From contig NZ_JALJCJ010000001.1 of assembly GCF_022899935.1 (NCBI RefSeq), forward strand, positions 1,076,053-1,140,052: a stretch of DNA of 64,000 nt, written 5' to 3'. The translations under genes were made by a program, and so were the position numbers. Position 1 is the stretch's first letter, and each line of letters opens with the position of its first letter. The notes under the pieces are model-generated. The model had not been told where the DNA came from and ran no database searches. It saw only the letters and a program-made list of their open reading frames with translations. This DNA is from Shinella curvata (GTDB taxonomy: Bacteria; Pseudomonadota; Alphaproteobacteria; Rhizobiales; Rhizobiaceae). Positions 1,372 through 18,417 of this stretch are shown here, piece by piece.

Positions 1372-4175
1372 GCGCCTTTGCCTTCGCCTTCCCCGCAGTG
1401 CTGACGACGCTGGTGCTTCTGCCCGTCATCTGGTGGCTGCTGCGCCTCACGCCGCCGAAGCCGCTCGTCGAAGTCTTCCCGCCCTTCGCCATCCTTGCCT
1501 CCATCCTGAAGCGCGAGGAGACGCCGGCGCAAAGCCCCTGGTGGCTGACGCTGCTGCGCATGCTGATGGCCGCCGCCGTCATCTTCGCCATCGCCGATCC
1601 GGTCTTCAACCCGCGCACCAACACGCTGGCCTCCAGCGGCCCGCTCGTCCTCGTCGTCGACAACACCTGGGCATCGGCCACCGACTGGCCGCGCCGCGTC
1701 GAGACCGCCACCGCACTGATCGACGACGCCGAAAGCCGCGATGTGCCGATTGCGCTGGTCCTCACCGCCGATCGCCAGCATGACGCCGTGCCCGTCGACG
1801 CCATCACCGCCCGCAACCGCCTCGCCGCCGCCGAACCGCGCCCGCTGCCGGCAGACCGCAACGCGGCCGTCGCGTCGCTGCGCACCGCACTCGACGGCAC
1901 CGCGCCCGGCACGATCGCCTTCATCAGCGACGGCATGGCGAACGGCGGAACGGACGAGACGGTTACGGCTCTCAAGGCGTTGTCTCCCGCCGAATTCCGC
2001 CTGATCGAGAACGACGGCGCATCTGCCGTTGCGATCACCGCCGCCAATAACGGCGCCGATGCCCTCTCCGTCACCCTCACCCGCCTCGATGGCCGCGCGC
2101 CGCGCAGCCTGTCGTTGACCGCGCATGATTCGCGCGGCCGGCCGATCGCGACCGGCGCCGCCGAATTCGCCGCCGGTGCGACCACCACAACCGGCACGAT
2201 CACCGCACCCTTCGAGCTGCGCAACGATTTCGCGCGCCTCACCATCGACAGCCTCGCCAATGCCGGCGGCACCTATCTGCTCGACGATGGCTTCCGCCGC
2301 CGCCGAGTCGCCTTCCTGTCGGGCGAGGTGGTGGATGCCAGCCAGCCGCTGCTCTCGCCGCTGCACTATATCAATCGGGCGCTTGCCCCCTATGCCGACC
2401 TGCTCGAACCGAGTGTTGCCGATCTCTCGGTGGCGGTGCCCGAGCTCATCGAACAGAACCCCTCCGTGCTGATCATGGCCGATATCGGCCGCCTGCCGGA
2501 GGATGTGCAGGCCGAGGTGAAGCGCTGGGTGGAAGCCGGCGGCATGCTGATCCGCTTTGCCGGTCCGCGCCTCGCCGCCGCCCCCGCCGACGATCCGCTG
2601 GTGCCGGTGCTGCTGCGCAAGGGTGAGCGCGCGCTTGGCGGTGCACTCTCCTGGTCCGAGCCGCAGCCGCTGTCGGCCTATCCGGCAAACAGCCCGTTCT
2701 TCGGCATGCGCGCGCCCGACAATATCCTGATCAAGCGCCAGGTTCTGGCCGAACCGACGCCGGATCTCGCCGAGCGCACCTGGGCGAGCCTTGCCGACGG
2801 CACGCCGCTGGTGACGACAGGTCCGCTCGGTTCCGGCCGCATCGTGCTCTTCCATATCAGCGCGGAAACCGGCTGGTCGAACCTGCCGCTGTCGGGCGAT
2901 TTCGTCGAAATGCTTCGCCGCACCGTGCAGCTATCGCGCGGCGGCGGCGTGTCATCGAAGGGTGGCGAGGCGCAGCGCCTGCCGCCCTATCGCCTGATGA
3001 CCGCCAACGGCACGCTGGCCGCCGCCACCGGCGAGGCCAAGCCGCTGGCCGCCAGCGATGGCGCCAAGGCGATCGCCACCTTCGACAACCCGCCCGGCCT
3101 CTACGGCACCGAGGACGGCTATGTCGCGCACAACCTCTTCCCAGCCGGCCATGAAATCCGCCCGCTCGCCGTCGCCGAAGGTGCCGGCGTGTTGCGCGAG
3201 CCGCTCGCCGGCAAGGAGACCTGGTCGCTGAAACCGCATCTCTTCACGCTGGCCGCCCTGCTGCTGCTCGCCGACTGCGCCATCGTGCTCTTCATGGGCG
3301 GCGCCTTTGCTGCGGCCGCCCGCCGCGTTCCGAGCCGCGGTGCAGCTGCCGCCGTGCTGCTGGCGCTGATGGCGGGTTCATTGATCACTCTGCCCGGCGA
3401 AAGCCGCGCGGACGATGCCAAGCCCGGCGACGACACGATCCTCTCGCGGCTCGACACGACGCATATCGCCTATGTTGTGACCGGCGAAGGCGAGGTTGAC
3501 CGCATCTCCGAGCGCGGCCTTGCCGGCCTCACCGAATTTCTCACCTACCGCACCACGCTGGAGCCGGGCGAACCCGTCGGTGTCGACATTTCCAAGGACG
3601 AGCTGTCGCTCTACCCGATCATCTATTGGCCGGTGAGTGCCTCGGCGGAAATGCCCTCCAGCGCCGCGATCAGCCGCATCGATGCCTATATGCGCAATGG
3701 CGGCACCGTGCTGTTCGACACGCGCGACCAGTTCGTCTCGCTCGACGGCAACTCGACGAGCCCCAACACCGAGCGCCTGCAGGCGATCCTCGCCAATCTC
3801 GACATTCCGCCGCTGGAACCCGTCCCGGCCGATCACGTCCTGACCAAGGCCTTCTATCTGCTCGCCAATTTCCCCGGCCGCTATGCCGGAAGCCCGCTCT
3901 GGGTGGAGGCCGAACTCGACCGCAAAGAAGACCCGTCGCGCCCGGCCCGTGCGGGCGACGGCGTGTCGCCGATCATGATCACCGGCAACGACTTCGCCGG
4001 CGCCTGGGCGGTCGATGCCAATGGCATGGCGCTCCTGCCGACCGTGCCGCCGGACGAGGTGCAGCGCGAGCACGCCTTCCGCTCCGGCGTCAACATCATG
4101 ATGTACATGCTCACCGGCAACTACAAGGCGGACCAGGTCCACGTGCCCGCCCTCCTCGAGCGGCTGGGGCAGTGA
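1368..4175 (+). CDS. BatA-like / DUF4159 domain membrane protein
   Basis: A 935-residue protein. The N terminus has two membrane segments (about residues 5-23 and 60-80) with the arrangement of the aerotolerance BatA N-terminal domain. A VWA-like region follows (LVLVVDNTWASATDW near residue 95). A further hydrophobic pair lies near residues 625-680, and the last 240 residues (from DDTILSRLDTTHIAYV) match the DUF4159 domain. The start overlaps the DUF58 stop as ATGA. The family is nearly always found beside MoxR and DUF58 genes in alphaproteobacteria, which suggests an envelope-associated MoxR/VWA complex. No direct function is known. Confidence 0.85.
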   Translation: MSAFAFAFPAVLTTLVLLPVIWWLLRLTPPKPLVEVFPPFAILASILKREETPAQSPWWLTLLRMLMAAAVIFAIADPVFNPRTNTLASSGPLVLVVDNTWASATDWPRRVETATALIDDAESRDVPIALVLTADRQHDAVPVDAITARNRLAAAEPRPLPADRNAAVASLRTALDGTAPGTIAFISDGMANGGTDETVTALKALSPAEFRLIENDGASAVAITAANNGADALSVTLTRLDGRAPRSLSLTAHDSRGRPIATGAAEFAAGATTTTGTITAPFELRNDFARLTIDSLANAGGTYLLDDGFRRRRVAFLSGEVVDASQPLLSPLHYINRALAPYADLLEPSVADLSVAVPELIEQNPSVLIMADIGRLPEDVQAEVKRWVEAGGMLIRFAGPRLAAAPADDPLVPVLLRKGERALGGALSWSEPQPLSAYPANSPFFGMRAPDNILIKRQVLAEPTPDLAERTWASLADGTPLVTTGPLGSGRIVLFHISAETGWSNLPLSGDFVEMLRRTVQLSRGGGVSSKGGEAQRLPPYRLMTANGTLAAATGEAKPLAASDGAKAIATFDNPPGLYGTEDGYVAHNLFPAGHEIRPLAVAEGAGVLREPLAGKETWSLKPHLFTLAALLLLADCAIVLFMGGAFAAAARRVPSRGAAAAVLLALMAGSLITLPGESRADDAKPGDDTILSRLDTTHIAYVVTGEGEVDRISERGLAGLTEFLTYRTTLEPGEPVGVDISKDELSLYPIIYWPVSASAEMPSSAAISRIDAYMRNGGTVLFDTRDQFVSLDGNSTSPNTERLQAILANLDIPPLEPVPADHVLTKAFYLLANFPGRYAGSPLWVEAELDRKEDPSRPARAGDGVSPIMITGNDFAGAWAVDANGMALLPTVPPDEVQREHAFRSGVNIMMYMLTGNYKADQVHVPALLERLGQ

Positions 4176-4176
4176 C

Positions 4177-6249
4177 ATGACCATACAGTTCTCCCCCTTC
4201 CTGCCCTGGATTGCCATCGCCCTCATCGGCCTCTTCGGCCTCGTGCTGGCCGCTCTCGGTCTCTGGCGCGGCCTGCGCGGCGCGCTGGTGCGCGCCTTCG
4301 CCCTTGCCCTGCTCGTGCTGGCGCTCGCCAATCCCGTGCTGATGCAGGAGGATCGCGAGGCGTTGTCGACCGTCGTGCCGGTCATCGTCGACCGCAGCCA
4401 AAGCCAGGACAGCGCCGAGCGCACAGCCGAGACGGATGCAGCGCTTGCCGGTCTCAAGGAGCGCTTCTCCCGTTACCCGCGCATCGAGCCGCGCATCGTC
4501 GAGGCGGGCGACGACGGCACGTCGGACACGCCCTCAACCCGCCTTTTTGACGCCCTTAACTCGGCGATTGCCGACGTGCCGCGCTCGCGCGTCGGCGGCG
4601 CGATCTTCATCACCGACGGCCAGGTGCACGACATTCCCGAGGTCGGCGCTTTCTCCGGCTTCGACGCGCCCATCCATGCCCTCGTCACAGGGCGGCCGGA
4701 TGAATTCGACCGCCGCATCGAGGTGGTCAGCGCCCCGCGCTTCGGCATCGTCGGCGAGGCGCAGGAGCTGAAATTCCGCGTGGTGGACGACGGCGCCGGC
4801 CCAGGCGGCACGGCGCGTGTGACCGTGCGCCTCAACGGCAACGAGATCGCCTCCGAGATCACCGAGCCCGGCACCGAACAACCGCTCGGCTTCACCGTCC
4901 CGCGCGGCGGCAACAATATCCTCGAATTCGAGGTGGAGCCCGTTCAGGGCGAGATCACGACGGCGAACAACCGCGCCGTCCATGTCATCGAAGGCATCCG
5001 CGAGAACCTGCGCGTGCTGCTCGTCTCCGGCGAGCCGCATGCCGGCGAGCGCGCCTGGCGCAATCTCCTGAAGTCGGACACCGCCATCGACCTCGTGCAT
5101 TTCACCATTCTGCGCCCGCCGGAAAAGCAGGACGGCACGCCGATCAACGAACTCTCGCTGATCGCGTTTCCGACGCGCGAACTCTTCGTCGACAAGATCA
5201 ACGAATTCGATCTGATCATCTTCGACCGCTATCAGCACCGCGGCGTGCTGCCGATCCTCTACTACGACAACATCGCGCAATATGTCGAAAACGGCGGCGC
5301 GCTGCTGATCGCGGCGGGACCGGAACATGCGGGCAACGATTCGATTGCCGGCACGCCGCTCTCCGTCGTGCTGCCCGCGAACCCGACCGGCGAGATGAAT
5401 GTCGCGCCCTTCTATCCGCGGCTGTCCGACCAGGGCAAGAAGCATCCGGTCACACGCGGCCTCGAAGGCGCCGATTCGGAGCCGCCGCATTGGGGCCGCT
5501 GGTTCCGCACGGTCGACGTGCAGCGCCCGCAGGGCAATGTCGTGATGGAGGCCAATGACGGCAAGCCGCTCCTGGTACTGAATCGCGCCGGCAAGGGCCG
5601 CGTCGCCATGCTGCTCTCCGACCAGGGCTGGCTCTGGGCGCGCGGTTTCGAAGGCGGCGGGCCGCATGTCTCGCTTTACCGGCGCACGGCGCATTGGCTG
5701 ATGCAGGAACCGGCGCTGGAGGAAGAGGCCCTGACGGCCCGTACCTTCGGACGCACCCTGCAGATCAACCGCCAGACGATCGGTGACGCGCCGGGCGAGG
5801 CCACCCTGAAGCTGCCTTCCGGCAAGACGGAGCAAGTGAAGCTCACGGAAGCCGAACCCGGCCTCTACCGCGCGGAAATCCCGACGACAGAGACCGGCCT
5901 CTACGAAATCACCAACGACAATCTCAGTGCGCTGGTGCATGTCGGGGCCGTCGATGCGCCGGAATTCAAGGCGACGATCTCGACGACGGAGACCCTGAAG
6001 CCGCTCGCCGGCGCCACCCGTGGCACGGTGCGCCGGCTGGTCGACGAGAGCGGAAATGCCGTCTCGCTGCCGCCACTTCTGCCGGTTTCCGGCCAGGTCC
6101 GCACGGTGGACGAGAACAGGCTGTCGCTGCGCATGACGGATGAGACCGTGCTCAAGGGCATCAATTCGCTGCCGCTCTTCGCCGGCTTCGCCGGTGTCGG
6201 TCTGCTGCTCCTCGCCTTCTCCGCCACCTGGTATCGCGAAGGCCGATAG
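4177..6249 (+). CDS. Large membrane protein of the MoxR/DUF58 operon (VWA- and glutamine-amidotransferase-like)
   Basis: A 690-residue protein that begins one base after the DUF4159 stop. Two N-terminal membrane helices (about 10-28 and 35-55) are followed by a VWA-like segment with VPVIVDRSQSQDSAE (DxSxS-like). The centre (about 330-470) resembles a class I glutamine-amidotransferase fold (LLIAAGPEHAG), without an obvious catalytic triad that I can assign. A final helix near 665-685 is followed by WYREGR. This architecture is the regular fourth member of the operon in Rhizobiales. A clear hairpin terminator follows at 6256, so the operon ends here. Confidence 0.8.
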   Translation: MTIQFSPFLPWIAIALIGLFGLVLAALGLWRGLRGALVRAFALALLVLALANPVLMQEDREALSTVVPVIVDRSQSQDSAERTAETDAALAGLKERFSRYPRIEPRIVEAGDDGTSDTPSTRLFDALNSAIADVPRSRVGGAIFITDGQVHDIPEVGAFSGFDAPIHALVTGRPDEFDRRIEVVSAPRFGIVGEAQELKFRVVDDGAGPGGTARVTVRLNGNEIASEITEPGTEQPLGFTVPRGGNNILEFEVEPVQGEITTANNRAVHVIEGIRENLRVLLVSGEPHAGERAWRNLLKSDTAIDLVHFTILRPPEKQDGTPINELSLIAFPTRELFVDKINEFDLIIFDRYQHRGVLPILYYDNIAQYVENGGALLIAAGPEHAGNDSIAGTPLSVVLPANPTGEMNVAPFYPRLSDQGKKHPVTRGLEGADSEPPHWGRWFRTVDVQRPQGNVVMEANDGKPLLVLNRAGKGRVAMLLSDQGWLWARGFEGGGPHVSLYRRTAHWLMQEPALEEEALTARTFGRTLQINRQTIGDAPGEATLKLPSGKTEQVKLTEAEPGLYRAEIPTTETGLYEITNDNLSALVHVGAVDAPEFKATISTTETLKPLAGATRGTVRRLVDESGNAVSLPPLLPVSGQVRTVDENRLSLRMTDETVLKGINSLPLFAGFAGVGLLLLAFSATWYREGR

Positions 6250-6255
6250 GCGGTC

Positions 6256-6281
6256 GGGAAGGCAATTTGGCCTTCCCTTTT
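6256..6281 (+). terminator. Rho-independent terminator of the MoxR operon
   Basis: An 8-bp perfect stem (GGGAAGGC, 6256-6263, with GCCTTCCC, 6270-6277), a 6-nt loop, and TTTT directly after it. It lies 7 nt after the stop of the last operon gene. Confidence 0.8.
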
Positions 6282-6347
6282 CACCCTCGGAAAACCCCGC
6301 TGAATCCCTTGGAAATCCGGCCGCTTCCCGCGTGCCGGACGACAGCG

Positions 6348-6385
6348 CCTGTAACTACAGGCTCAGGCAAGCTCACCCCTGTAAC
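6348..6385. promoter_or_regulatory. Palindrome and direct repeat upstream of the giant repeat gene
   Basis: CCTGTAACTACAGG at 6348-6361 is a perfect 14-bp palindrome. Its left half, CCTGTAAC, recurs at 6378-6385, exactly 30 bp later (about three helical turns). Both lie 60-100 bp before the start of the repeat gene, in the only non-coding stretch between two terminated units. This looks like an operator for a dimeric regulator with a second half-site. The regulator is not known, and I could not place a convincing -35/-10 pair. Confidence 0.4.
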
Positions 6386-6448
6386 GCATAGACTGACCGA
6401 TAGTGGATTTCGTCTGTTCTTTCGTCTCATTTTCTCAGGATTTTGCCT

Positions 6449-9400
6449 ATGACGTCGATCGTTTCCTCCTTGAGCATCAGCCAGATCAAGGCGCTTTCGA
6501 CAGCAGCCATCCAGAGCTGGTCGACCGAGGACGTCGCCTCGCTGACGACCTCGCAGCTCAATGCATTCTCCTCCAAACAGATCGCGGCGCTCGAAGCGGA
6601 AGACATTGAAGTTCTCGGCTCGCGCCAGCTGAGTGCCATCTCGCGGACCGCCATCATCGGCCTGACGCTGGAGCAGCTCGGCGCGCTGGACCGGGCGATC
6701 AGCAGCCTCACGCCCACCCAAATCGCGGCCCTCAGCACTACTCAGGTGAAGGCGCTGACGGAGGATCAGTCCGAGGCGTTGACCTCGGCGCAGGTTCGCG
6801 TCCTGAGCGCCGCTCAGCTTGCCGTCTTCGAGCCTGAAGAGATTGCCACCTTCTCCACCGAGGACATGGCGGCCATCAGCTACAAGGCGGTCCAGGGCCT
6901 CAGCACGGCGGCCATCGCGCTGCTTTCGGACGAGCAGATCGGCGCACTGAACAAGCAGGCGCTCGCCGGCTTCTCCAATGCGCAGATGAACGCGCTCACG
7001 CCCGAGCAGATCGCCGCCCTCTCCACTGAACAGGTCGCCCAGCTGAAGCCGGCGCAGATCGCCGCGCTTTCGACCGCCGCCGTAGCCGCTTTCACCGAGA
7101 CCCAGATCCCCGCTCTCAGCGCAAGCGCCATTACAGGTTTCAGCGCGCTGCAGATCCGTGCGCTCGGCAACGACCAGATCGAGGCACTGACGCCGGCCCA
7201 GACAAAAATGCTGACGGCCGCGCAGCTGAGCGCCATGGGTTCGGACGGCGTGCTCACCTTTTCCTCGGCCGATATCGCAGCCATTTCCGCCGGCGCGCTT
7301 TCCGGCATCAGCACCGATGCGATCGCCGCCCTGTCCGACGAACAGGTCGCCGGTCTCACCGCAAAGACCATCGCGGGACTGACCGCCACGCAAATCGGCG
7401 CCCTGACCTCCGACCAGATCGGCAGCCTGACGTCCACGCAGGTCCGCGCCCTCAGCTCCACCCAGCTCGCAGCGCTGTCCTCCGAAGACGTTGCAGCCCT
7501 TTCCAGCGAGAACATTGGCGCGATCGCTGGCAAGGCATTGAAGGGTTTCGGCACCGCTGCCATCGCAGCCCTGTCCGACGATCAGATCGCGGCGCTGACG
7601 ACCGCACAGATCAACGCACTCGAGGCCTGGCAGATCGCAGCTCTCGGGACGGATGGCATTTCGGATCTCGGCACAGCCCAGATCGCCGCCATCAGCCCGA
7701 GCGCGATCGCCGGCCTCACCTCCGCGCAGATCGCCGTCCTCGACATGGACCAGCTGGAAGCCTTCACGCCGATCCAGGCGAAGGCGTTCAATTCCAGGCA
7801 GCTCTCCGTGCTCGACGCCGACACGATCGAAGCCTTCTCGACGATGGACATCGCCGCCTTCTCCGCGACGGCCATCGCCGGCCTCAATACGGCAGCGATA
7901 TCGGGCCTGTCCTCCGACCAGGTCGCCGCACTGAACGCCAAGACCATATCGAGCCTGACGACAGCCCAGATCAGCACGCTGTCAGCCGAACAGGCCGAAG
8001 CCCTCACCGTCGTGCAGATTCGCGCCCTGACCGCCGCCCAGGTCGGCGCGATCGACCCATACACGTTCGAGGCCTTTACCAGCACGAAGATCGCGGCCCT
8101 CCAGCCGGCAGCGCTCTCCGGCCTTGGGACGGATGCGCTTGCCGCGCTCACCACCGCACAGATCGCAGCGCTGGCACCGAGCCAGATCGCATCCTTCAAG
8201 CCTTGGCAGCTCGGTGCGCTCGATGCCGATCAGGCCGAAGCGCTGACGCCGGCACAGCTTCGCCTGCTGAGCGCCACACAGCTGGCGGGTTTCGGCGCGG
8301 AAGCGCTTGAAACCTTCTCCACTGCCGATATCGCAGCGCTCGCCAACAAGTCCGTGGCCGGCCTCACAACGGATGCCGTCGCAGCCCTGTCGACTGCCCA
8401 GATCGCCGCACTCGGCGCCGCCGCCTTCTCCAGCCTGACGGGCGCACAGGTCGGCGCCCTCAGCACCGAGCAAATCGGCGCGCTTTCGACGCTGCAGGTC
8501 GCCGCACTCGGCGCCACGCAGCTGCGCGCACTGGATCCGGAAGGTTTCGAGTCCCTCACGTCGGCCCACATCGCCGCCATCAACAGCAAGGCAATGTCGG
8601 CGCTTGGCACCGATGCGATCGCCAATCTGTCCACCGACCAGATCGCGGCCCTCAGCACCGGCACCATTGCAAGTCTCACCGCCAAGCAGCTCGGCGTGAT
8701 GACCACGGCCCAGGCCGAAGCCCTGACCTCGGCGCAGGTGCGCGCCCTGACCTCGAGCCAGCTTTACGCGCTTGGCGACGACAATATCGCGACCTTCTCT
8801 ATCGAAGACCTTGCCGCGATCCACAGCAGGGCCGTCTCCGGTCTTCCAACCGGCGCGCTGGCCGCCCTTTCGAGCAGCCAGATTGCAGTCCTGACAACCG
8901 CCCAGATCGTCGGCCTCACCACCGCGCAGCTGGCGGCCATGAATCCGGAATTTGTGGGATCGTTGACCACCGCCCAGATCGCGGCGCTCAGCACCAGCGT
9001 CATCGCCAGCCTCTCCACGGCGCAGATCGCCGAACTCGATGCCGCGCAGGCCGAGGCGCTCACCTCCGCACAGGTGCGCGTCCTCACTTCGGATCAGCTT
9101 GCCGAATTCACGTCGCAGGAGATCGCGACGTTCTCCACGGCCGATATCGCGGCTATCACGAAAGCCATCCTCGGCCTCAGCGACGACGCGATCACAGGTC
9201 TTTCCACCGCCCAGGCGGCAGCGCTCAGCCGCAATGCGCTGGCCAGTATGACGGCGGCGCAGATCGAGGCACTGACGACCGCCCAGATCGCGGCCTTCAC
9301 GACGGCGCAGATCGGTGCCCTCACCTCCATCCAGGTCGCAGCGCTCGAACCGGAGGACGTCCAGGCTCTCTCCACGACCCAGATCGCGGCACTTGCAAAC

Positions 9401-12400
9401 CGTGCCCTTTCGGGCTTCACGCCGGGCACCATTGCCGGCCTCAGTTCCGACCAGATCGCGGCCATCAGCACCATCGCCATTTCCGGCCTCACCACCGATC
9501 AGATCGACGCCCTGAATTCCACCCAGGTCAGCAGGCTTTCCAACGGACAGATCAAGGCACTGACCGCAACCCAGGTCGCAGCGCTCGGCGAAGACCTTGC
9601 GGTGCTCTCCAGCGCGCAGATCGCAAGCCTCAACACGACAGCCATTCCCGGCATGACCACCGGCCAGATCGATGCGCTCACCGCCGAGCAGATCGCCGCG
9701 CTTTCCACCGCGCAGGTCGGCATGCTGACCGCCCAGCAGATCGGCGCCTTCAGCACGGCCGAAATCGCAGCCTTCACAACGGCTCAGATCGCGGCGCTGG
9801 GCGTCACGGGCATTCCGGGTCTCACCGGCGACCAGATCGAAGTCCTCAGCACCGGTCAGGTCGCGGCGCTTTCCAGCCGCCAGATGGGGGCTCTCACCTC
9901 CGCGCAGCTCGGCGCTATGGGCACGGAGAACCTGGCGGCTCTCACCACCGGCCAGATCGCAGGGCTCAATGCGGCAAGCATTCCCGGCCTCACATCCCAA
10001 CAGCTCGCCGTGCTCAGCACCAGCCAGGTCGAAGCGCTGCACGAAGCGCAGGTCGGCGTTCTCACCTCCGAGCAGATCAGCGAACTCGGCACTGAAGACA
10101 TCGCCACCTTCTCCACAAAGGACATCGCCGCCATCACCGCCAGTGCCATTGCCGGCCTGTCCGCGGCCAAGATCGCCTCGCTCTCCACCGCCCAGATCGC
10201 AGCGCTCAGCACGGCGGCAATCGCCGCGATGACGACAACCCAGATCGCAGCGCTTTCCACCGGCCAGGCGGAAGCGCTCACGAGCAACCAGGTCGCGGCG
10301 CTCGGCTCCACGCAGCTTGCGGCGCTCGGCGCGGACGATATCGCCACTTTCTCTTCCAGGGACCTGGCGGCCATCCGCTCGGATGCGATCGGCGGCCTCT
10401 CGACCTCGACGCTTGCCGCCCTTTCGACCGCCCAGATCGCAGCCTTCGGGTCGGCCGGCATCAGCGGGCTGACTGCCCGCCAGCTCGCTGCACTTGGCAC
10501 GGCGCAGGCCGAGGCGCTGACCAGCACCCAGATCGCCGCCCTGTCCTCCACCCAGCTTGCCGCCCTCTCCTCCGATGCGATCGCCACCTTCTCGACGCGG
10601 GAAATGTCGGTCATCGGCTCCGATGCGGTGGCAGGTCTTTCGACCGCCTCGATTGCCGCCCTCTCCACCGGACAGGTCGCGGCGCTTAGCTCCCTGGCCA
10701 TCGGCAGCCTGCTGCCGCGTCAGATCGCGGCGCTCAGTAGCGACCAGCTCGATGCCATGACGCCAGCGCAGATGCGCGCACTCGGCGCACGCCAGATCGC
10801 CTCGCTCGGCACTGAATATATCGCGGCGCTTTCGACGGCGCAGATCGCCGCCCTTTCGACGGCCGCGATTTCAGGCCTTTCCGCGGAGCAAGTCGCCGCC
10901 ATGACCACGGCGCAGGCCGAAGCGCTCACAAGCACGCAGGTCGGCGCCCTGACCTCGCGCCAGATCGCCGCTCTCGGCATGGACGACCTCGACACGTTCT
11001 CGGTCGCCGACATGGCCGCGATCAGCTCCAGCGCCATGTCCGGCCTGTCGACCGGCATGCTCGCCTCGCTGACGACGAGCCAGATCGCCGCGCTCGGCCC
11101 GGCCGGCCTTTCCGGCATGACGAGCGAGCAGATCGGCGCGCTCAGCAGCACCCAGGTCGCAGCCCTTACCACGGCGCAGATCGCCGGCCTTGGTTCCCGA
11201 CAGGTGGCCGGCCTCGCGATGGAAGACATTGCAGCACTTTCCCCCGCGCAGATCGCCGCGCTCGGTACCGGCGGCATTGCCGGCCTGACGACCGCGCAGA
11301 TCGCTACGCTTTCGACCGCGCAGGCGGAAGCACTGACCAGCACGCAGATCGCCGCGTTCAAATCGACGCAGATCGGCGCCTTCCACACCGAGGCGATCGA
11401 GACCTTTTCCGCGCATGAGATGAGCATGATCAGCTCCAGCGCGGTCGCCGGCCTCTCGACGGCGATGATCACGATACTGACCACGGCCCAGATCGCCGCC
11501 CTCGACGGCGCGGGCCTGACCAGCGCACAGGTCAATGCGCTGAGCTCCAACCAGCTGGAAGCGCTGACCACCGCCCAGCTCGCCGCTTTCGGCTCCATCC
11601 AGGTCGGCGCGCTCGGCACCGATGACATCGCGCTGCTTTCGGCCACACAGATCGCCGCCATCGGCACGGCCGGCGTCGCCGCGCTCTCGGCAAACCAGAT
11701 CGTGGCGCTGACGCCGGATCAGGCCGAGGCACTGACCAGCACGCAGGTCGCAGCGCTCAGTTCCACGCAGATCGGTGCACTGAGCACGGACGACCTCGCC
11801 CTGTTCTCGACCGCCGACATGGCCGCGATCAGCTCGCGCGCCGTTTCCGGCCTTTCGACATCGGCGCTCCATGCCCTGACCGAGAGCCAAATTGCGGCGA
11901 TGAGCCCGGCAGGCATTTCCGGCCTTGTCAGCGACCAGATCGCCGCACTCAGCATCGATCAGGTCGAGGCGCTGACCAGCGCGCAGGTGGGCGCGCTCAC
12001 CGCACGCCAGCTTTCCGCCTTCACCGCCGATCAGTTGAGCACCTTCTCGACCGCCGACATGGGCGCGATCAGCTCGATCGCCATGTCGGGCCTGCCGGCT
12101 TCGATCCTGTCAGGCTTCACTGCCGAGCAGATCGCGGCACTCAGCCCGGCCGGTTTCTCCGGTCTTTCGACCAGCCAGATCGGCGCCCTGAGCACGAGCC
12201 AGATCGCCAGCCTTTCCACGGCACAGATCGCAGCTCTCGGCTCGCGCCAGATCGGGGCGCTCGGCGTCGATGACATTACGGCCCTGACCGCGGCACAGAT
12301 CGCCGCCTTCAGTGCAAGCGGCATTGCCGGCCTCACCGGCGCACAGGCGGCTGCGCTCACCGTGGAACAGGCCGAAGCGCTTTCCTCGACGCAGGTCGCC

Positions 12401-13213
12401 TCGCTCGGCTCCACCGCGCTGGCCGGCCTCTCGACGCAAGCGCTCGACACGTTCTCGCTGGACAAGCTGTCGGCCATCGGCTCCTCCGCCATCCGCGGTC
12501 TGCCGGCCAACTATCTCGCGACGCTGTCAGACGCGGAAATTGCAGCCCTTGGCACGGCGGCAATCTCCGGGCTCACCAGCACCCAGATCGGCGCGCTCAG
12601 CGTCGAGCAGCTGGAAGCCTTCTCGGTCGCGCAGATCGGCGCTCTCAGCATCTCCGGCCTCGCGGGCCTGACGACCGCGCAGATGCAGACCATCTCCGCC
12701 GAAGAACTGGCCGCCATCACTCCGGCGGCCATCAAGGGCCTCTCCTCCGCCGCGATGGGTTCGCTGTCGACGGAGAGCGTTGCCACCCTGAGCAAGACCC
12801 AGCTTGCCGCGCTGAGCTACAGCCAGATGGCCGCGCTGAGCGCCACCCAGATCGGCGCGCTCTCGGCCGATCAGGTCGGCGCCCTGACGGCGACGCAGGC
12901 GGCCGCGCTGGGTGCCGACGATTTCGGCAGCTTCTCGGTCGACCATATCCTGGCGCTCAGCTCGAACGCCATTTCCGGCCTCAGCACGGCAACGCTGGCC
13001 GGCCTGACCTCCGAGCAGGCCAATGCCTTCACGCCCGGCCAGCTCGCCGCGATGACATCATCGCAGATCAGCGCCCTGTCGCAGGCGGGTTCCGGCGGGG
13101 CTTCGGTCCAGAGCTTCTCGTTCTCCGATACATCTGGCGCATCGGCGGGCACGGAGAGCGGTTCGGGCGATGACGAGATCGCGTCGATCATCTCGTCCTA
13201 CCTCGCGATCTGA
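6449..13213 (+). CDS. Giant octapeptide-repeat protein (2254 aa), candidate secreted or surface protein
   Basis: I do not recognise a named family. Nearly the whole protein (about residues 3-2210) is tandem octads of consensus L-[ST]-[ST]-x-Q-[IVL]-x-A, roughly 270 copies. S/T plus the Q three residues later form a helix-capping box, so a solenoid of very short helices is likely. Octads are grouped into modules of 7 (168 bp) and 10 (240 bp), marked by a recurring ATFSTxD[IM]AAI. I see no Cys and only three Trp. There is no N-terminal signal peptide. The last 44 residues change to Gly/Ser-rich, acidic sequence (GSGDDE) ending in hydrophobic IASIISSYLAI, which resembles type I secretion tails. 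The chosen ATG has AGGA 8 nt upstream; a TTG two codons earlier lacks such spacing. The gene stands alone between terminators, and no secretion genes are adjacent. Confidence 0.85.
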   Translation: MTSIVSSLSISQIKALSTAAIQSWSTEDVASLTTSQLNAFSSKQIAALEAEDIEVLGSRQLSAISRTAIIGLTLEQLGALDRAISSLTPTQIAALSTTQVKALTEDQSEALTSAQVRVLSAAQLAVFEPEEIATFSTEDMAAISYKAVQGLSTAAIALLSDEQIGALNKQALAGFSNAQMNALTPEQIAALSTEQVAQLKPAQIAALSTAAVAAFTETQIPALSASAITGFSALQIRALGNDQIEALTPAQTKMLTAAQLSAMGSDGVLTFSSADIAAISAGALSGISTDAIAALSDEQVAGLTAKTIAGLTATQIGALTSDQIGSLTSTQVRALSSTQLAALSSEDVAALSSENIGAIAGKALKGFGTAAIAALSDDQIAALTTAQINALEAWQIAALGTDGISDLGTAQIAAISPSAIAGLTSAQIAVLDMDQLEAFTPIQAKAFNSRQLSVLDADTIEAFSTMDIAAFSATAIAGLNTAAISGLSSDQVAALNAKTISSLTTAQISTLSAEQAEALTVVQIRALTAAQVGAIDPYTFEAFTSTKIAALQPAALSGLGTDALAALTTAQIAALAPSQIASFKPWQLGALDADQAEALTPAQLRLLSATQLAGFGAEALETFSTADIAALANKSVAGLTTDAVAALSTAQIAALGAAAFSSLTGAQVGALSTEQIGALSTLQVAALGATQLRALDPEGFESLTSAHIAAINSKAMSALGTDAIANLSTDQIAALSTGTIASLTAKQLGVMTTAQAEALTSAQVRALTSSQLYALGDDNIATFSIEDLAAIHSRAVSGLPTGALAALSSSQIAVLTTAQIVGLTTAQLAAMNPEFVGSLTTAQIAALSTSVIASLSTAQIAELDAAQAEALTSAQVRVLTSDQLAEFTSQEIATFSTADIAAITKAILGLSDDAITGLSTAQAAALSRNALASMTAAQIEALTTAQIAAFTTAQIGALTSIQVAALEPEDVQALSTTQIAALANRALSGFTPGTIAGLSSDQIAAISTIAISGLTTDQIDALNSTQVSRLSNGQIKALTATQVAALGEDLAVLSSAQIASLNTTAIPGMTTGQIDALTAEQIAALSTAQVGMLTAQQIGAFSTAEIAAFTTAQIAALGVTGIPGLTGDQIEVLSTGQVAALSSRQMGALTSAQLGAMGTENLAALTTGQIAGLNAASIPGLTSQQLAVLSTSQVEALHEAQVGVLTSEQISELGTEDIATFSTKDIAAITASAIAGLSAAKIASLSTAQIAALSTAAIAAMTTTQIAALSTGQAEALTSNQVAALGSTQLAALGADDIATFSSRDLAAIRSDAIGGLSTSTLAALSTAQIAAFGSAGISGLTARQLAALGTAQAEALTSTQIAALSSTQLAALSSDAIATFSTREMSVIGSDAVAGLSTASIAALSTGQVAALSSLAIGSLLPRQIAALSSDQLDAMTPAQMRALGARQIASLGTEYIAALSTAQIAALSTAAISGLSAEQVAAMTTAQAEALTSTQVGALTSRQIAALGMDDLDTFSVADMAAISSSAMSGLSTGMLASLTTSQIAALGPAGLSGMTSEQIGALSSTQVAALTTAQIAGLGSRQVAGLAMEDIAALSPAQIAALGTGGIAGLTTAQIATLSTAQAEALTSTQIAAFKSTQIGAFHTEAIETFSAHEMSMISSSAVAGLSTAMITILTTAQIAALDGAGLTSAQVNALSSNQLEALTTAQLAAFGSIQVGALGTDDIALLSATQIAAIGTAGVAALSANQIVALTPDQAEALTSTQVAALSSTQIGALSTDDLALFSTADMAAISSRAVSGLSTSALHALTESQIAAMSPAGISGLVSDQIAALSIDQVEALTSAQVGALTARQLSAFTADQLSTFSTADMGAISSIAMSGLPASILSGFTAEQIAALSPAGFSGLSTSQIGALSTSQIASLSTAQIAALGSRQIGALGVDDITALTAAQIAAFSASGIAGLTGAQAAALTVEQAEALSSTQVASLGSTALAGLSTQALDTFSLDKLSAIGSSAIRGLPANYLATLSDAEIAALGTAAISGLTSTQIGALSVEQLEAFSVAQIGALSISGLAGLTTAQMQTISAEELAAITPAAIKGLSSAAMGSLSTESVATLSKTQLAALSYSQMAALSATQIGALSADQVGALTATQAAALGADDFGSFSVDHILALSSNAISGLSTATLAGLTSEQANAFTPGQLAAMTSSQISALSQAGSGGASVQSFSFSDTSGASAGTESGSGDDEIASIISSYLAI
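6470..13080 (+). repeat. Coding tandem repeat: 24-bp octads in 168-bp and 240-bp modules
   Basis: The base unit is 24 bp. I tracked the codon for the Phe/Leu in the recurring xTFSxxD motif at 6851, 7259, 7499, 7835, 8075, 8315, 8555, 8795, 9131, 9368, 9605, 9941, 10109, 10349, 10589, 10829, 10997, 11237, 11405, 11636, 11804, 12044, 12284 and 12452. Almost all gaps are 168, 240 or simple sums of these (336, 408). The exceptions are 237, 237 and 231, which reflect loss of one or three codons. Copies differ at many third positions, so the array is old rather than freshly expanded. Confidence 0.85.
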
Positions 13214-13238
13214 CGCCTTCTGACTGATTGAAAACCGG

Positions 13239-13273
13239 AAAAGGCCGCCCTCGGTGTTCGAGGGCGGCCTTTT
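13239..13273 (+). terminator. Strong terminator after the giant repeat gene
   Basis: A perfect 15-bp stem (13239-13253 with 13259-13273) and a 5-nt loop. The stem carries AAAA on its left and TTTT on its right, so it can work in both directions. It serves the repeat gene on the plus strand and the small lipoprotein gene at 13295 on the minus strand. Confidence 0.88.
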
Positions 13274-13294
13274 CGTTTGATGTAAGCCTTCCGA

Positions 13295-13552
13295 TCAGGA
13301 CGGATCGTAGGTCGGGAAGCCACTGCATTTGCCGGCGACGGCCGACCGGCAATCCCGCGGGCGATAGAGCCGCTTGTAACCACCTTGTTCGGCGCGCAGC
13401 CGCTGCTTGCGCTGATGGGCGCGCAATTGCGCTTCAGAGCTGGAAGAGTGGACACCGGTCTCCCGTGGCGGGGCCGTCGTGCAGCCGGCCAGGACGAAAG
13501 CCCCAGCCATCACCATCACGACACCGGTGAGAAAAGCTCTATTCCTGCGCAT
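13295..13552 (-). CDS. Small lipoprotein (85 aa)
   Basis: Begins MRRNRAFLTGVVMV and has a signal peptide ending in the lipobox VLAGC, so Cys is expected near residue 23 after cleavage. The mature part is short, basic and Ser-rich, with two further Cys residues (RPRDCRSAVAGKCSGFP) that could form a disulphide. I chose the ATG at 13552 because GGAGGG sits just upstream. A longer reading frame would put 24 unneeded residues before the signal peptide. No family name is evident. Confidence 0.75.
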   Translation of the reverse strand: MRRNRAFLTGVVMVMAGAFVLAGCTTAPPRETGVHSSSSEAQLRAHQRKQRLRAEQGGYKRLYRPRDCRSAVAGKCSGFPTYDPS

Positions 13553-13797
13553 CCGATCCCTCCGTGCGAAGGTCTTGCATAGCACACGCGCCGCTTTCGA
13601 TGAATGACAGAAGCGACTTTTCAAAGCGCCTTTCCCTGCGCTATAGTTTCAGTACGGCCGGAGGCGGCCGGCAGACCCGCGCCTTTCGAAGGCATGGCGA
13701 ACGCCTCCCAGAAAACCTTTCTCCACCGTTCATCGTGGGCGAAGGCGTCGGCAATGCGGGCACTGACGAAGACTTCGCCGTAACGAAAGGAACGGAC

Positions 13798-14334
13798 ATG
13801 CGCGATTATCGCGATGCCAAAGCCATGGCAAAAGCCCTGCGCGAATCTCTTGCAGCCCGCAACACCGAGATCAGTCACAGCGAAGCGCTGGAAATCGTCG
13901 CCCGCCAGTTCGGCGCCGATACCTGGAACATCCTGTCGGCAAAGATCGAGGCGAAACCCGAACCGGCCGGTGTGGTCTTCGAGCTTGCCGTGCCGATCAT
14001 GCGCATTTTCGACGTCGCGAAGGCGCACGAATTCTATCTCGGCTTCCTGGGCTTCTCGGTCGACTGGGAGCATCGCTATGGCGACAATTTCCCGCTCTAT
14101 ACGCAGGTCTCCCGCGCCGGGCTGCGCCTGCATCTTTCCGAACATGCGGGTGATGCGACACCCGGCAGCACCGTGGTCGTCTACATGAAAGGCATCCGCG
14201 CCTTCCAGAAGGAACTGATCGGCAAGGACTACCGCTATATGAAGCCCGGCCTCGAAGACGAGGGCTCGCGGCTGGAAGTGACGGTCATAGACCCTTTCCA
14301 GAACCGCATCCGCTTCATGGAACTGAAGGACTGA
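13798..14334 (+). CDS. Glyoxalase-superfamily (VOC) protein with N-terminal glyoxalase-related domain
   Basis: A 178-residue protein. Residues 1-50 (MRDYRDAKAMAKALRESLAA ... ALEIVARQFGADTWNILSAK) form the small helical 'glyoxalase-related' domain found before some VOC folds. Residues from about 60 (ELAVPIMRIFDVAKAHEFYL) form a bleomycin-resistance-like VOC half, with a final FRIRFMELKD-type strand. The ATG at 13798 follows AAAGGA. The open frame extends further upstream, but that part lacks conserved features. VOC proteins of this type are annotated as glyoxalase or bleomycin resistance; the substrate is unknown. Confidence 0.85.
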   Translation: MRDYRDAKAMAKALRESLAARNTEISHSEALEIVARQFGADTWNILSAKIEAKPEPAGVVFELAVPIMRIFDVAKAHEFYLGFLGFSVDWEHRYGDNFPLYTQVSRAGLRLHLSEHAGDATPGSTVVVYMKGIRAFQKELIGKDYRYMKPGLEDEGSRLEVTVIDPFQNRIRFMELKD

Positions 14335-14364
14335 AGTCCTCTCCGACGAGGGGCTTGCCCCTCG

Positions 14365-14874
14365 TCACTCCGCCCGCCAGGCGATGACGCCCTTCAGCCG
14401 CTCGTGCGTGTCTTCCGCGAAAGGCATGACGAGCACGCGGGCGGGATCGACCGGGCCGGGGAAGGCCAGCGCATTCCAAGCAACCTTTTCGAAGCCGAGC
14501 GGGCCGTAGTACGGCGGATCGCCGACGAGCACGACGGCTTCAGAGCCCTTCCGCTTGGCGGCGGCGCAGGCGATGGCGAGCAATTCACGGCCGATGCCGC
14601 GGTTCTTGTGCGAAGGCCGGACCGCGAGCGGACCGAGCAGATGCGCCTTCACCCCGCCGGCCAGAACCGGCGTCATCCGCACCGAGGCGATCGTCTCGCC
14701 GTCATCCGTGCAGACGAAGGAGAGCGACAGGTCGTGCGGCCCCTGCTCACGAATGCGGGCTGCGGCACGCACATGCCGACCGGGACCGAAGGCTTCTTCG
14801 TTGATGTGTTCGATGGCCGCGTCGTGGGAGGCATCTTCCGTCAGGTAGACGATGTCGTGCTTGAGCATGTTCAT
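14365..14874 (-). CDS. GNAT-family N-acetyltransferase
   Basis: A 169-residue single-domain GNAT. The acetyl-CoA loop is visible as RPSHKNRGIGRELL (R/Q-x-x-G-x-G/A type) near residues 86-99. It is preceded by the LLGPLAV strand and followed by VVLVGDPPYYGPLGFEKV, a signature of the YhbS-like subgroup. Substrate unknown. It converges with the VOC gene, with 30 nt between the stops. Confidence 0.88.
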   Translation of the reverse strand: MNMLKHDIVYLTEDASHDAAIEHINEEAFGPGRHVRAAARIREQGPHDLSLSFVCTDDGETIASVRMTPVLAGGVKAHLLGPLAVRPSHKNRGIGRELLAIACAAAKRKGSEAVVLVGDPPYYGPLGFEKVAWNALAFPGPVDPARVLVMPFAEDTHERLKGVIAWRAE

Positions 14875-15157
14875 GGAGATCAGGAAACCGGATACGAAGC
14901 TAGGGATGCGGGTTATCGCGCCGCCGCCGAAAGGGGCGCAGCAGGAGCATCAGCGTCGTCGTGGGTTTCCGATATAGAACATGCGGTCGTCTTCCTCGCC
15001 GGCTTGAGCGCCGGTGCTGATCTGCGCGGATAGCAGAAATTTTCGTTCTGTCAAAGAGCAAAACGCACCGTTCACTAAAAAGCGCCTATCCAGCCAATGC
15101 CCATGCGCTATCTATGAACCCAGGTTCAGGCCGCGACCGGCCACAAAGGAGATCATC

Positions 15158-16144
15158 ATGGGCATGCTCGTTGACGGCGTCTGGCATGACGTCTGGTACG
15201 ATACCAAGGCGACGAAGGGTCATTTCAAACGGTCCGTCTCGCAGTTCCGCAACTGGATCACGCCGGATGGCGAACCGGGCCCGACCGGTGAAGGCGGCTT
15301 TGCGGCCGAGGCCGGCCGCTATCACCTCTATGTGTCGCTCGCCTGTCCCTGGGCGCACCGCACGCTGATCTTCCGTAAACTGAAAAAGCTGGAAGATCTG
15401 ATCACCGTCTCGGTCGTCGATCCCCTGATGCTGGCGAAGGGCTGGGAATTCAAGGGCGAAAACGGCGGCACACTCGATCCGCTGTTCAACGCCTCGGCCC
15501 TCTATGAGGTCTATCTCAAGGCCGATCCACACTATTCCGGCCGCGTGACGGTGCCCGTGCTGTGGGACAAAAAACAGAACCGCATGGTCTCCAACGAATC
15601 GGCCGAGATCATCCGCATGTTCAACTCGGCCTTCGACGGCCTCACCGGCTCGCGCGACGACTACTACCCGGAGATCCTGCGCGCCGAGATTGATGCGCTG
15701 AACGACAGGATCTACGACACCGTCAACAACGGCGTCTACAAGGCCGGCTTTGCAACGACGCAGGAGGCCTATGAGGACAGCATCACCAAACTCTTCGAGA
15801 TGCTGGACAGCCTGGAAGAGCGGCTTGCGACGAAGCGCTACCTTACCGGCGACCGGATCACCGAGGCCGACTGGCGGCTCTTCACCACGCTGGTGCGCTT
15901 CGATCCCGTCTATGTCGGCCACTTCAAGTGCAACATCCGCCGCATCGCCGACTATCCGAACCTCTATGGCTATCTGCGCGAACTCTACCAAGTGCCGGGC
16001 GTCGGCGGGACGGTCAACATGCGCCATATCAAGGAGCACTATTACCGCAGCCACACGATGATCAATCCGACCGGCATCGTGCCCGTTGGCCCTGATATCC
16101 ACCTGGCAACGCCGCATGGCCGCGACAGGTTGAAAGCGGCCTGA
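15158..16144 (+). CDS. Glutathionyl-hydroquinone reductase (GST xi class, YqjG/Ecm4-like)
   Basis: A 328-residue GST-fold protein. The catalytic motif SLACPWAHRTLIF (C-P-W-A-H-R) near residue 65 is diagnostic for glutathionyl-hydroquinone reductases, which use glutathione to reduce glutathionylated quinols. The N-terminal GVWHDVWYDT and the C-terminal HIKEHYYRSHTMINPTGIVP are also characteristic. The ATG at 15158 has AAAGGAG upstream; the open frame before it is not conserved-looking. The 283 bases before the start hold no gene that I can support and presumably contain the promoter. Confidence 0.92.
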   Translation: MGMLVDGVWHDVWYDTKATKGHFKRSVSQFRNWITPDGEPGPTGEGGFAAEAGRYHLYVSLACPWAHRTLIFRKLKKLEDLITVSVVDPLMLAKGWEFKGENGGTLDPLFNASALYEVYLKADPHYSGRVTVPVLWDKKQNRMVSNESAEIIRMFNSAFDGLTGSRDDYYPEILRAEIDALNDRIYDTVNNGVYKAGFATTQEAYEDSITKLFEMLDSLEERLATKRYLTGDRITEADWRLFTTLVRFDPVYVGHFKCNIRRIADYPNLYGYLRELYQVPGVGGTVNMRHIKEHYYRSHTMINPTGIVPVGPDIHLATPHGRDRLKAA

Positions 16145-16147
16145 CCT

Positions 16148-16651
16148 CTACCAGAAATCCGCGAAGGTGGCCCGCCCGGCGATTTCCTCCAGCCGCCGGC
16201 GGGTCGCCGCGGTGGTGGCCGCCGGCAAGGCATCGAGCGTGAAAAAGCCGGCCTCGACGATTTCGCGATCCTTCAGACGCGGCGCGGTCTGCGTGACGCC
16301 ATCGCAGCGATAGAGCAGGACGTGATCGCGCCTGCTCGTCTGCTTGTTGAAATAGACATGCAGAAGCCGCGGTGGCGCACCGAGCGCCAGATTGCCTTCC
16401 TCGCGGATTTCCTTGGCGACGGCCTCCAGTGCCGTTTCGCCCCGCTCGATGCCGCCGCCCGGCAGATGCCAGCCCGGCACGTAGCTGTGGCGGACGAGGA
16501 AAACCCGTCCGGCGTCGTCGAAACAGGCCGCACGCACGCCCATCGTCATGCCGCGAGACAGCGCAAAATACTGATGCACGAGACCCGTCAGCAGGCGCGC
16601 CAAAACGCTGCGGGTCGGCGGGGAAGCGGGCTGTGGCCTATCCTGTTCCAT
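16148..16651 (-). CDS. Nudix hydrolase
   Basis: The Nudix box is complete: GGGIERGETALEAVAKEIRE followed by EGNL, matching Gx5Ex7(R/K)EUxEExGU. It precedes a DHVLLYRCDG strand. The substrate is probably a nucleoside diphosphate derivative, but it cannot be told from sequence. The start is uncertain. ATG at 16651 gives 167 residues; another ATG at 16703-16705 would add 18. Neither has a good ribosome-binding site, and a 7-bp hairpin (16651-16669) overlaps the nearer start. The stop lies 3 nt from that of the GST gene. Confidence 0.85.
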   Translation of the reverse strand: MEQDRPQPASPPTRSVLARLLTGLVHQYFALSRGMTMGVRAACFDDAGRVFLVRHSYVPGWHLPGGGIERGETALEAVAKEIREEGNLALGAPPRLLHVYFNKQTSRRDHVLLYRCDGVTQTAPRLKDREIVEAGFFTLDALPAATTAATRRRLEEIAGRATFADFW

Positions 16652-16762
16652 TCCGGCACTTCGCCGGAACCTTTCGGGCAAATCAAGCCTTGCAGGTCGA
16701 AGCATCGGGAATATCCACGCGCTTCACGTTTCCCTGCACGGCCTTATGCTCTAAGGAGGGGT

Positions 16763-17665: not shown

Positions 17666-17781
17666 CGCTTTTCAGCGAATAAACCCCCTCGCCCATCCGT
17701 ACTTCCCTCTCAGAGTGGCCTGCCGAAAGCAGGCCGTTCAAGACGGCCCGCGTCCGGCAGATTCCGATCGAGAGGGAACCC

Positions 17782-18417
17782 ATGACCATGCTCCGCCACA
17801 CCATGCTGCTTTCATTCTGCGCCGCCGTCTCTTTCACGGCGCTTTCGGCTGCACGCGCCGCCGATTCCGACACCACCACGCCGCCGGTCGCCACGGAAAC
17901 GACGACGACCTGCACGGACGGCAAGATCTGGAACGAGGAAAAGAAGGAATGCGTCGCGCCCGAGGACATGAAACCCGCCGAAACCACGCCCGCCGAGGGC
18001 ACAACGCCGGCAGACGACAAGGCCAAGACGGAAGAACAGAAGAAGACGGAGCGCGAGATCGACGACAAGCTCTACACAGCGGCGCGTGAATTCGCCTATG
18101 CCGGCCAGCATGAGAATGCGCTGCGGGCGCTGCGCGCCGCCTACAATCAGGAAGACCCGCGCATCCTCAACTATATGGGCTACAACACCCGCAAGCTCGG
18201 CAACATCAAGCTCGGAATGACCTACTACAAGCGCGCGCTGCAGAAGGACGAGAACTATATCCTCGCCCGCTCCTATATGGGCCAGGCCCTGATCGACCAG
18301 GGCGACATCGAGGGTGCCCGCGTCCAGCTCGTCGAAATCCGCGACCGCGGCGGTGAGAACACCTGGGCCTACCGCGCGCTTCTCCAGTCGCTCGGCGGCG
18401 AGCGGACCACCTATTAA
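17782..18417 (+). CDS. Exported TPR-repeat protein
   Basis: A 211-residue protein. Residues 1-27 form a signal peptide ending ALSAARAAD. A Thr/Glu/Lys-rich linker with a Cys pair (CTDGKIWNEEKKECV) follows. From residue 95 come about three TPR units (YAGQHENALRALRAA; YMGYNTRKLGNIKLGMTYYK; ARSYMGQALIDQGDIEGAR). It is probably periplasmic, with a scaffolding role. The start is preceded by GAGAGGGAA; ATG at 17788 is an alternative. Confidence 0.82.
   Translation: MTMLRHTMLLSFCAAVSFTALSAARAADSDTTTPPVATETTTTCTDGKIWNEEKKECVAPEDMKPAETTPAEGTTPADDKAKTEEQKKTEREIDDKLYTAAREFAYAGQHENALRALRAAYNQEDPRILNYMGYNTRKLGNIKLGMTYYKRALQKDENYILARSYMGQALIDQGDIEGARVQLVEIRDRGGENTWAYRALLQSLGGERTTY

Follow-up and report, generated by a model that had tools for sequence, protein, structure and literature searches.

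Repeat lengths consistent with whole solenoid turns in a giant ALTTAQ-repeat protein of Shinella curvata, and the linkage of its relatives to GT41 glycosyltransferases

Introduction

What kind of molecule is specified by a bacterial gene that encodes 2254 amino acids, nearly all of them belonging to one helical octad repeat, and why should its octads be grouped in modules of 7 and 10? The soil bacterium Shinella curvata carries such an open reading frame at positions 6449-13213 (forward strand, ATG at 6449) of the window, the term used here for the whole 64,000-nucleotide stretch of DNA that was analysed (contig NZ_JALJCJ010000001.1, positions 1,076,053 to 1,140,052). A first-pass annotation, made from the letters alone, described the octads and their modules, proposed a helical solenoid in which the module marks a surface or a turn, and recognised no family. 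The present analysis confirms that the octad order and its periodicities are real and finds that the repeat family was already known; new are an explanation of the modules by turn number and the observation that relatives of the gene are linked to a specialised clade of GT41 glycosyltransferases and, in part, to type I secretion (T1SS) genes. Genomes, contigs and fetched loci are denoted below by the letters G, C and L, respectively.

Results

The gene and its octad array

The encoded protein is acidic (164 Asp + Glu and 55 Lys + Arg), contains no Cys, consists of Ser and Thr to 23%, and begins with MTSIVSSLSISQIKALS, an N-terminus that by eye is unlike a signal peptide. Its first seven residues, MTSIVSS (6449-6469), stand outside the octad pattern and are common to a paralogue in the same genome and to many relatives. 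The octad array follows at 6470-13075 (residues 8-2209), and the remainder (13076-13210) comprises a Gly/Ser-rich tail of low model confidence and a C-terminal helix, DDEIASIISSYLAI, which is a putative uncleaved type I secretion signal; all features given here lie on the forward strand. A weak terminator-like hairpin is found 5' of the gene (6252-6272), where such sites are not above those in shuffled sequence, and a 17-pair terminator-like hairpin 3' of it (13238-13274), such sites numbering 2 against a shuffle mean of 2.8. An Rfam scan of 4000-15000 found no RNA.

A PSSM/Viterbi parse gave 276 full-length octad slots, of which the last four fall in the non-repeat tail, leaving 272; four more octads within the array are short, namely 7-mers at residues 80-86, 903-909 (ITKAILG, 9155-9175) and 1046-1052 (LGEDLAV, 9584-9604) and a 5-mer at residues 1685-1689 (LDGAG, 11501-11515). 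The array therefore amounts to about 276 octads, in 7-, 10- and 17-octad blocks, and the octad repeat over some 2200 residues that had been described from the letters alone is real. Its consensus is L (72%), S/T (73%), S/T (57%), x, Q (56%), I/L/V (86%), x, A/G/S.

Identity between octads is raised at lags of 7, 10, 17, 20, 27 and 34 octads (z 4.7, 7.6, 6.3, 4.6, 6.1 and 4.1, respectively, against 1000 shuffles of octad order over lags 1 to 40) and depleted at lag 4 (z -4.4), and none of the other lags from 1 to 40 octads rises above z 2.8. The self-similarity at 56 and 80 residues that the first-pass annotation had named as the mark of its modules is thus present (lags 7 and 10), together with a further off-diagonal at 136 residues (lag 17). 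Its series of anchor motifs is borne out in spacing and curtailed in number: the strict anchor xTFSxxx occurs in 12 copies (nt 6845-12446), fewer than in the earlier series, which must take in degenerate copies. Nine of the 11 strict spacings (408, 1056, 480, 336, 240, 240, 408, 408 and 408) can be composed of 168- and 240-nt units, and counting the short octads that they contain turns the remaining spacings of 978 and 639 into 984 and 648, which can be composed likewise. The three spacings that had been noted as deviant (237, 237 and 231) match exactly the short octads at residues 903, 1046 and 1685, the sources of two 3-nt deviations and one 9-nt deviation, respectively. There are no exact DNA repeats of 30 nt or longer within the gene, and its repeats are consequently old.

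Family membership and predicted fold

The statement that no family could be recognised does not hold, since Pfam PF20080 (ALTTAQ repeat) covers the protein, with a score of 1098.2 bits against a cut-off of 26.4 and 85 stretches that pass. A described repeat family is therefore at hand, but no known structure and function come with it, because the literature searched is without mention of the family and the one solved match is a 120-residue, apparently designed protein. In fact, a literature search found neither the name ALTTAQ nor PF20080, and no function for the family in the literature searched; further searches, on octapeptide solenoids and on 'heme utilization protein' with secretion, returned nothing on the family in the titles and the opening parts of the abstracts. 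The solved match, HeliScrew4 (PDB 9zem), is the sole PDB-sequence match at E < 0.001 (E 6.4e-15 over 109 residues); its apparent design is judged from its name and sequence, and a search on HeliScrew or 9ZEM found no paper.

Plasmid-borne PF20080 relatives are often annotated as 'hypothetical protein' and some as 'heme utilization protein', an annotation that we reject, as nothing in the analysis supports heme use. An NCBIfam search of the protein gave no match. In PHROGs the protein matched one unnamed family strongly (phrog_15773, E 3.8e-42) and two others weakly; despite this, a phage-borne protein was rejected, as tblastn of the first 1000 residues against the phage collection gave no match. 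Pfam matches to LRR, CAAP1 and DUF4351 are low-complexity cross-hits, none of which has a stretch passing alone. A leucine-rich repeat protein was likewise rejected (LRR_EndoS and LRR_8 with 0 stretches passing alone; helices and no strand by DSSP in both models described below), as were an RTX protein (no HemolysinCabind match at E up to 1) and membership of the mesothelin family (no mesothelin model among the Pfam matches at E up to 1).

AF2 models of both ends, calculated from an alignment of the window protein with three orthologues (L027, L028 and L029), have pLDDT 91.2 and pTM 0.71 for residues 1-560 and pLDDT 88.4 and pTM 0.71 for residues 1720-2254, and in both predictions DSSP assigns a short helix to almost every octad but no strands, with a low-confidence tail and a final helix at the end of the protein. 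Ranked by E-value, the Foldseek matches are headed by a trypanosomal RNA-editing complex chain (rmsd 27.9 Å); mesothelin chains stand near the top with probability 1.00, but with a TM-score by query of only 0.15-0.24. Mesothelin has been described as a right-handed solenoid whose short helices form repeats of 27-37 residues, every one of them a full circle (PMC10035497). The predicted helix per octad at both ends, together with the solved octad-repeat match, supports the proposal of the first-pass annotation that the window protein is a helical solenoid.

Linkage of relatives to GT41 glycosyltransferases

The genome of the window (G000) contains a second ALTTAQ gene (contig C13), encoding 1143 aa in which a 17-octad period is strong (z 23), and 187 bp after this paralogue lies a TPR-GT41 gene, followed by genes for a Methyltransf_FA-domain protein and a UDP-galactopyranose mutase (GLF). 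Within the genus Shinella, ALTTAQ is found in 20 of 21 genomes and a GT41 orthologue (67-100% identity) in the same 20, the sole genome without ALTTAQ (G006) having only a 36% GT41 relative. The two genes adjoin in 18 of the 20 positive genomes (10 read in fetched stretches, at most about 2.1 kb apart, and 8 by match coordinates, less than 1 kb apart); in G003 and G020 the GT41 gene has no ALTTAQ gene nearby. The GT41 relatives at L087 8319-10340 and L088 950-3058, from G006 and G003, are of another type, 36% identical to the linked one. In G006 this other type adjoins flagellin genes in a cluster from which ALTTAQ is missing, and the genus therefore has two kinds of GT41 in the vicinity of flagellin genes.

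Outside the genus, a GT41 gene is present in the fetched stretch for 13 of 22 records with ALTTAQ (G023, G031, G034, G046, G235, G263, G331, G775, G532, G479, G758 and plasmids of Cereibacter and Pseudomonas) and was not found in the fetched stretch of the other nine, where several records were read at more than one locus, one linked locus sufficing to count, where the ORF filter flagged no ALTTAQ gene in the stretches of G201, G515 and G613, and where several of the 22 stretches stop at contig ends. These records, a part of those found, are 20 genomes (nine that were all the positives of two screens and 11 of the 19 from a further screen) and the two plasmids, which had been chosen by their 'heme utilization' annotation before the GT41 link was known. 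By our estimate, a genome that carries a few GT41 genes in 4-6 Mb would by chance show one within a stretch of this kind a few percent of the time.

At class level GT41 occurs in 136 of 385 genomes and in five of the six with ALTTAQ at E 1e-8 (G201 being without it), a co-occurrence that alone is weak evidence. Among closer comparisons, GT41 is present in 28 of 29 ALTTAQ-positive genomes versus 7 of 26 ALTTAQ-negative relatives, the latter taken from 37 by leaving out mostly small or incomplete genomes.

In a tree of GT41 sequences, 23 rows labelled linked and 35 unlinked rows separate with one change (support 62/100), the former in subclades of 19 and 4 rows (support 100/100 and 95/99); 21 of the 23 are truly adjacent, no ALTTAQ gene having been found in the stretches of L079 and L122. 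A second tree, made by a quick method with SH-aLRT support only and with six linked genus loci and four long-branch unlinked rows left out, holds a clade (SH-aLRT 99) of all 17 linked rows kept and four of six held-out GT41s, with no unlinked row; the two held-out sequences outside it are L133 and one of the three in L140. Judged from these trees, the linked transferases mostly form one clade. The linked GT41 aligns with the structures of OGT, XcOGT and SPINDLY. At L063 and L064, two GT41 genes adjoin, one per linked subclade, beside one ALTTAQ gene and T1SS genes. Among 14 controls, Caulobacter vibrioides, the host of FlmG, alone has PF20080 (found at E 1e-3 and 1e-7 but absent at 1e-8 and 1e-9), and it shares the presence of GT41 with one other control genome.

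The setting of these pairs within the genus admits a different, somewhat unlikely, reading, according to which the Shinella GT41 is an FlmG-like flagellin glycosyltransferase and the ALTTAQ protein a flagellum-associated or co-regulated surface protein that is not its substrate. FlmG of Caulobacter is described as an enzyme whose N-terminal TPR part binds and sets the substrate and whose C-terminal GT-B part O-glycosylates Ser/Thr in the cytoplasm before export, and which acts on flagellins (PMC7591256). In G000, flagellin and motB-like genes surround the short paralogue, GT41 and GLF; GT41 shares its stretch with flagellin genes at 11 of 12 fetched genus loci, and could act on flagellin there; G003 and G020 keep GT41 and GLF in a flagellin cluster from which ALTTAQ is absent; and in G006, which has no ALTTAQ, another GT41 lies beside flagellin genes. 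However, G006 has flagellins yet is without the ALTTAQ-type GT41, G016 of the genus has no flagellin in its 20 kb stretch (L123), and in all 13 linked non-genus records, several of them with T1SS genes, no flagellin match was found in the stretch with the ALTTAQ-GT41 pair. We favour the ALTTAQ protein itself as the candidate substrate of the linked transferase.

The Ser/Thr content of the octads bears on the candidate acceptor sites. At octad position 3 the mean S/T fraction is 0.69 in 25 linked versus 0.53 in 21 unlinked proteins, with the linked rows L139 and L140 being the ends of one gene and the Shinella rows being related to each other; the window copy has 0.58 and its linked paralogue 0.84. 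The linked copy is the richer one in eight genomes (G000, G002, G008, G012, G013, G018, G235 and G758), G263 gives both outcomes (0.64 and 0.70 against 0.65), and the opposite is seen in G001, G009 and G019, where the linked short copy has 0.13-0.18 and a piece of the long copy 0.57-0.59. Because of these three counter-examples, position 3 is not used as a main argument. S/T at position 2 may be purely structural. The short ALTTAQ genes at L119, L120 and L121 (about 720 aa) are oriented opposite to GT41 and are poor in S/T at position 3, and in this they differ from the short copies of the other genomes read.

Repeat lengths and turns of the solenoid

The raised lags of the window protein (7, 10, 17, 20, 27 and 34) lie near 2, 3, 5, 6, 8 and 10 times 3.4, and a period fitted on this protein alone gave T = 3.39 octads. 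At this period, the three strongest lags (in 5-40, chosen automatically) of the longest protein of each of 14 other genera or plasmid hosts have a mean cosine of 0.784, which was reached by 0 of 5000 null sets under either null (maxima 0.33 for independent lags and 0.37 for additive triples), although the 14 genera share ancestry and the 0/5000 figure overstates their independence. The preferred lengths in these 14 are mostly 7, 10, 14, 17, 24, 31 and 34 octads. A free scan of periods from 2.2 to 12 placed the best at T 3.42 (cosine 0.829), and the best outside 3.2-3.6 at 2.41 (0.713).

Over all 29 proteins of the lag test the mean cosine is 0.66, the poorest fits being proteins of genus g396, in many of which a 2-octad alternation dominates, and those of G775 and the Pseudomonas plasmid, where a 5-octad lag occurs. 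The single best period falls between 3.3 and 3.55 in 27 of 43 proteins (the window genus included), and the rest either have a best period close to 8.5 or 2.44, both of them fractions of the 17-octad block length, or show a poor fit. The 5-octad lag of the ALTTAQ proteins of L030 (Pseudomonas plasmid) and L129 (G775) is an extra one, off the 3.42 comb. The g396 loci (L130-L138) hold several giant ALTTAQ-like ORFs per genome, including an open frame of 6436 aa listed for G543, and most of their proteins are off the comb with a strong 2-octad alternation.

From these lags we infer that about 3.42 octads (27 residues) would make one turn of the solenoid, at about 105 degrees per octad modulo 360, integer lags being blind to its hand, and that blocks of 7, 10, 17, 24 and 31 octads would correspond to 2, 3, 5, 7 and 9 turns. 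The earlier idea of a module marking a surface or turn is thereby supported in a sharper form, in which the preferred repeat lengths fit whole turns. An unlikely explanation is that the 7- and 10-octad modules are mere traces of tandem duplication, silent on the fold: sums of two block sizes automatically yield 17, 24, 27 and 34, and related proteins share block sizes by descent, the 14 genera not being fully independent. Yet lineages differ in their basic blocks (7/10/17, 10/14/24 or 7/24/31) and all lie near multiples of one period, the null that includes sums never attains the observed cosine, and the blocks of the window gene are highly diverged at the DNA level. If blocks do correspond to whole turns, the pitch of the solenoid could be read from sequence alone by way of the comb of permitted repeat lengths, which also predicts the insertions that such a protein would tolerate.

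Conservation, neighbourhood and export

The window protein is 89, 87 and 64% identical to its orthologues at L027, L028 and L029, and outside the tail it is colinear with them, without any indel relative to the first two and with two one-residue indels relative to L029. With dN/dS values of 0.14, 0.12 and 0.34, respectively, the gene is under purifying selection. Because the array neither grows nor shrinks as its copies diverge, selection probably maintains both its length and its register.

Nine neighbours of the gene (451-6249 and 13804-18417) were scanned, which encode DUF58, BatA/DUF4159, a weakly matched 690-aa protein, glyoxalase, GNAT, GST, NUDIX, metallophosphatase and TPR proteins, and among these there is no GT41 and no T1SS (ABC/HlyD/TolC) gene. 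A GT41 gene adjoins the paralogue on contig C13 instead, and this gene, on another contig than the window, is the sole GT41 gene of the genome. The genes at 451-6249 (DUF58, BatA/DUF4159 and the 690-aa gene) are also found 5' in L027, L028 and L080 (L080 and L027 being seemingly one genome) and were not found beside the long ALTTAQ gene at seven other loci checked, which suggests that this gene has changed its position in the course of the genus's history. At L078 (G003:C1:471001-491000), the long gene extends over two overlapping frames (5388-13768) and looks frameshifted, unless this is a sequencing error.

Type I secretion genes occur in 7 of the 22 non-genus records (G235, G331, G775, G479, G508 and both plasmids), a tally in which weak ABC-ATPase matches elsewhere are uncounted. 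A Calx-beta/RTX protein (L032 12349-15435) is encoded beside the Cereibacter ALTTAQ gene and is likely a second T1SS substrate. Giant proteins that are exported are usually acidic and free of Cys. Among the T1SS substrates of R. leguminosarum, none is recognisable as ALTTAQ in the accessible part of the paper that describes them (PMC2275737). That the protein is instead a cytoplasmic scaffold or molecular ruler, neither exported nor glycosylated, with its fixed length as its function, accords with the lack of an evident signal peptide, the strict conservation of length among the four orthologues and the lack of a secretion gene among the nine neighbours, but is made quite improbable by the repeated linkage of relatives to T1SS genes and by a composition of the kind usual for export.

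Discussion

The reading that we favour, with a probability only slightly better than even (about 0.55), is that ALTTAQ proteins are exported helical rods or spacers of the cell surface, built in turns of about 3.42 octads and glycosylated on Ser/Thr in the copies linked to GT41. Each octad would form one short helix of a very long and thin solenoid, in which the Ser/Thr residues at positions 2 and 3 would cap the N-terminus, and so the start, of each helix and the Leu, Ile/Leu/Val and Ala residues would pack into a continuous core. Those duplications that survive would be the ones that add whole turns and keep the faces of the solenoid in register. Export would proceed without a signal peptide, most likely through a type I system that reads the C-terminus, and outside the cell the protein would act as an elongated rod on the surface or as a spacer resembling an adhesin. 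In the copies encoded beside a TPR-GT41 gene, the Ser/Thr residues of the octads would be glycosylated in the cytoplasm before export, much as FlmG acts on flagellin. Whether the window copy is itself glycosylated is uncertain, because neither a GT41 nor a T1SS gene adjoins it; if it is modified, the GT41 encoded on contig C13 must act in trans.

A broader proposal, for which we would give somewhat less than even odds, is that ALTTAQ proteins are the dedicated cargo of a hitherto undescribed glycosylation-export module. In it a specialised TPR-GT41 clade would modify Ser/Thr along the screw-like solenoid in the cytoplasm, a type I system would export the product, and the turn of about 3.42 octads would oblige repeat numbers to change by whole turns, which would together yield giant glycoprotein rods of set length with a set pattern of faces. 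Through its linkage to the GT41 clade, the ALTTAQ family becomes a proposed substrate of bacterial Ser/Thr glycosyltransferases, and it may represent a helical counterpart to giant adhesins that are glycosylated.

Comparison with known systems

HeliScrew4 (9zem) has an octad repeat of the same pattern as the window protein, but is 120 residues long and contains many TPEQ- and SPDK-type octads. Mesothelin and the ARM/HEAT-like solenoids resemble the ALTTAQ models in being solenoids of short helices, with a repeat that, in mesothelin, has a length of 27-37 residues; in contrast, mesothelin is a eukaryotic, GPI-anchored protein, and its TM-score over the whole ALTTAQ model is low.

For the linked GT41, FlmG provides the precedent of a cytoplasmic O-glycosyltransferase composed of TPR and GT-B parts, with the difference that its substrate is flagellin. 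The HMW1A/HMW1B/HMW1C system of Haemophilus follows a similar logic of a large exported adhesin with a partner glycosyltransferase, and HMW1C is reportedly a GT41 member that acts in the cytoplasm. However, HMW1 is glycosylated on Asn and exported by a two-partner route, whereas on the ALTTAQ side the transferase is an OGT-like TPR-GT41, for which homology indicates Ser/Thr, and some of the relatives have T1SS genes next to them. The giant RTX/T1SS adhesins, finally, share with the window protein its great size, its acidic and Cys-free composition and an expected C-terminal signal, but the ALTTAQ protein is without calcium-binding nonapeptide repeats and is helical rather than beta in the models.
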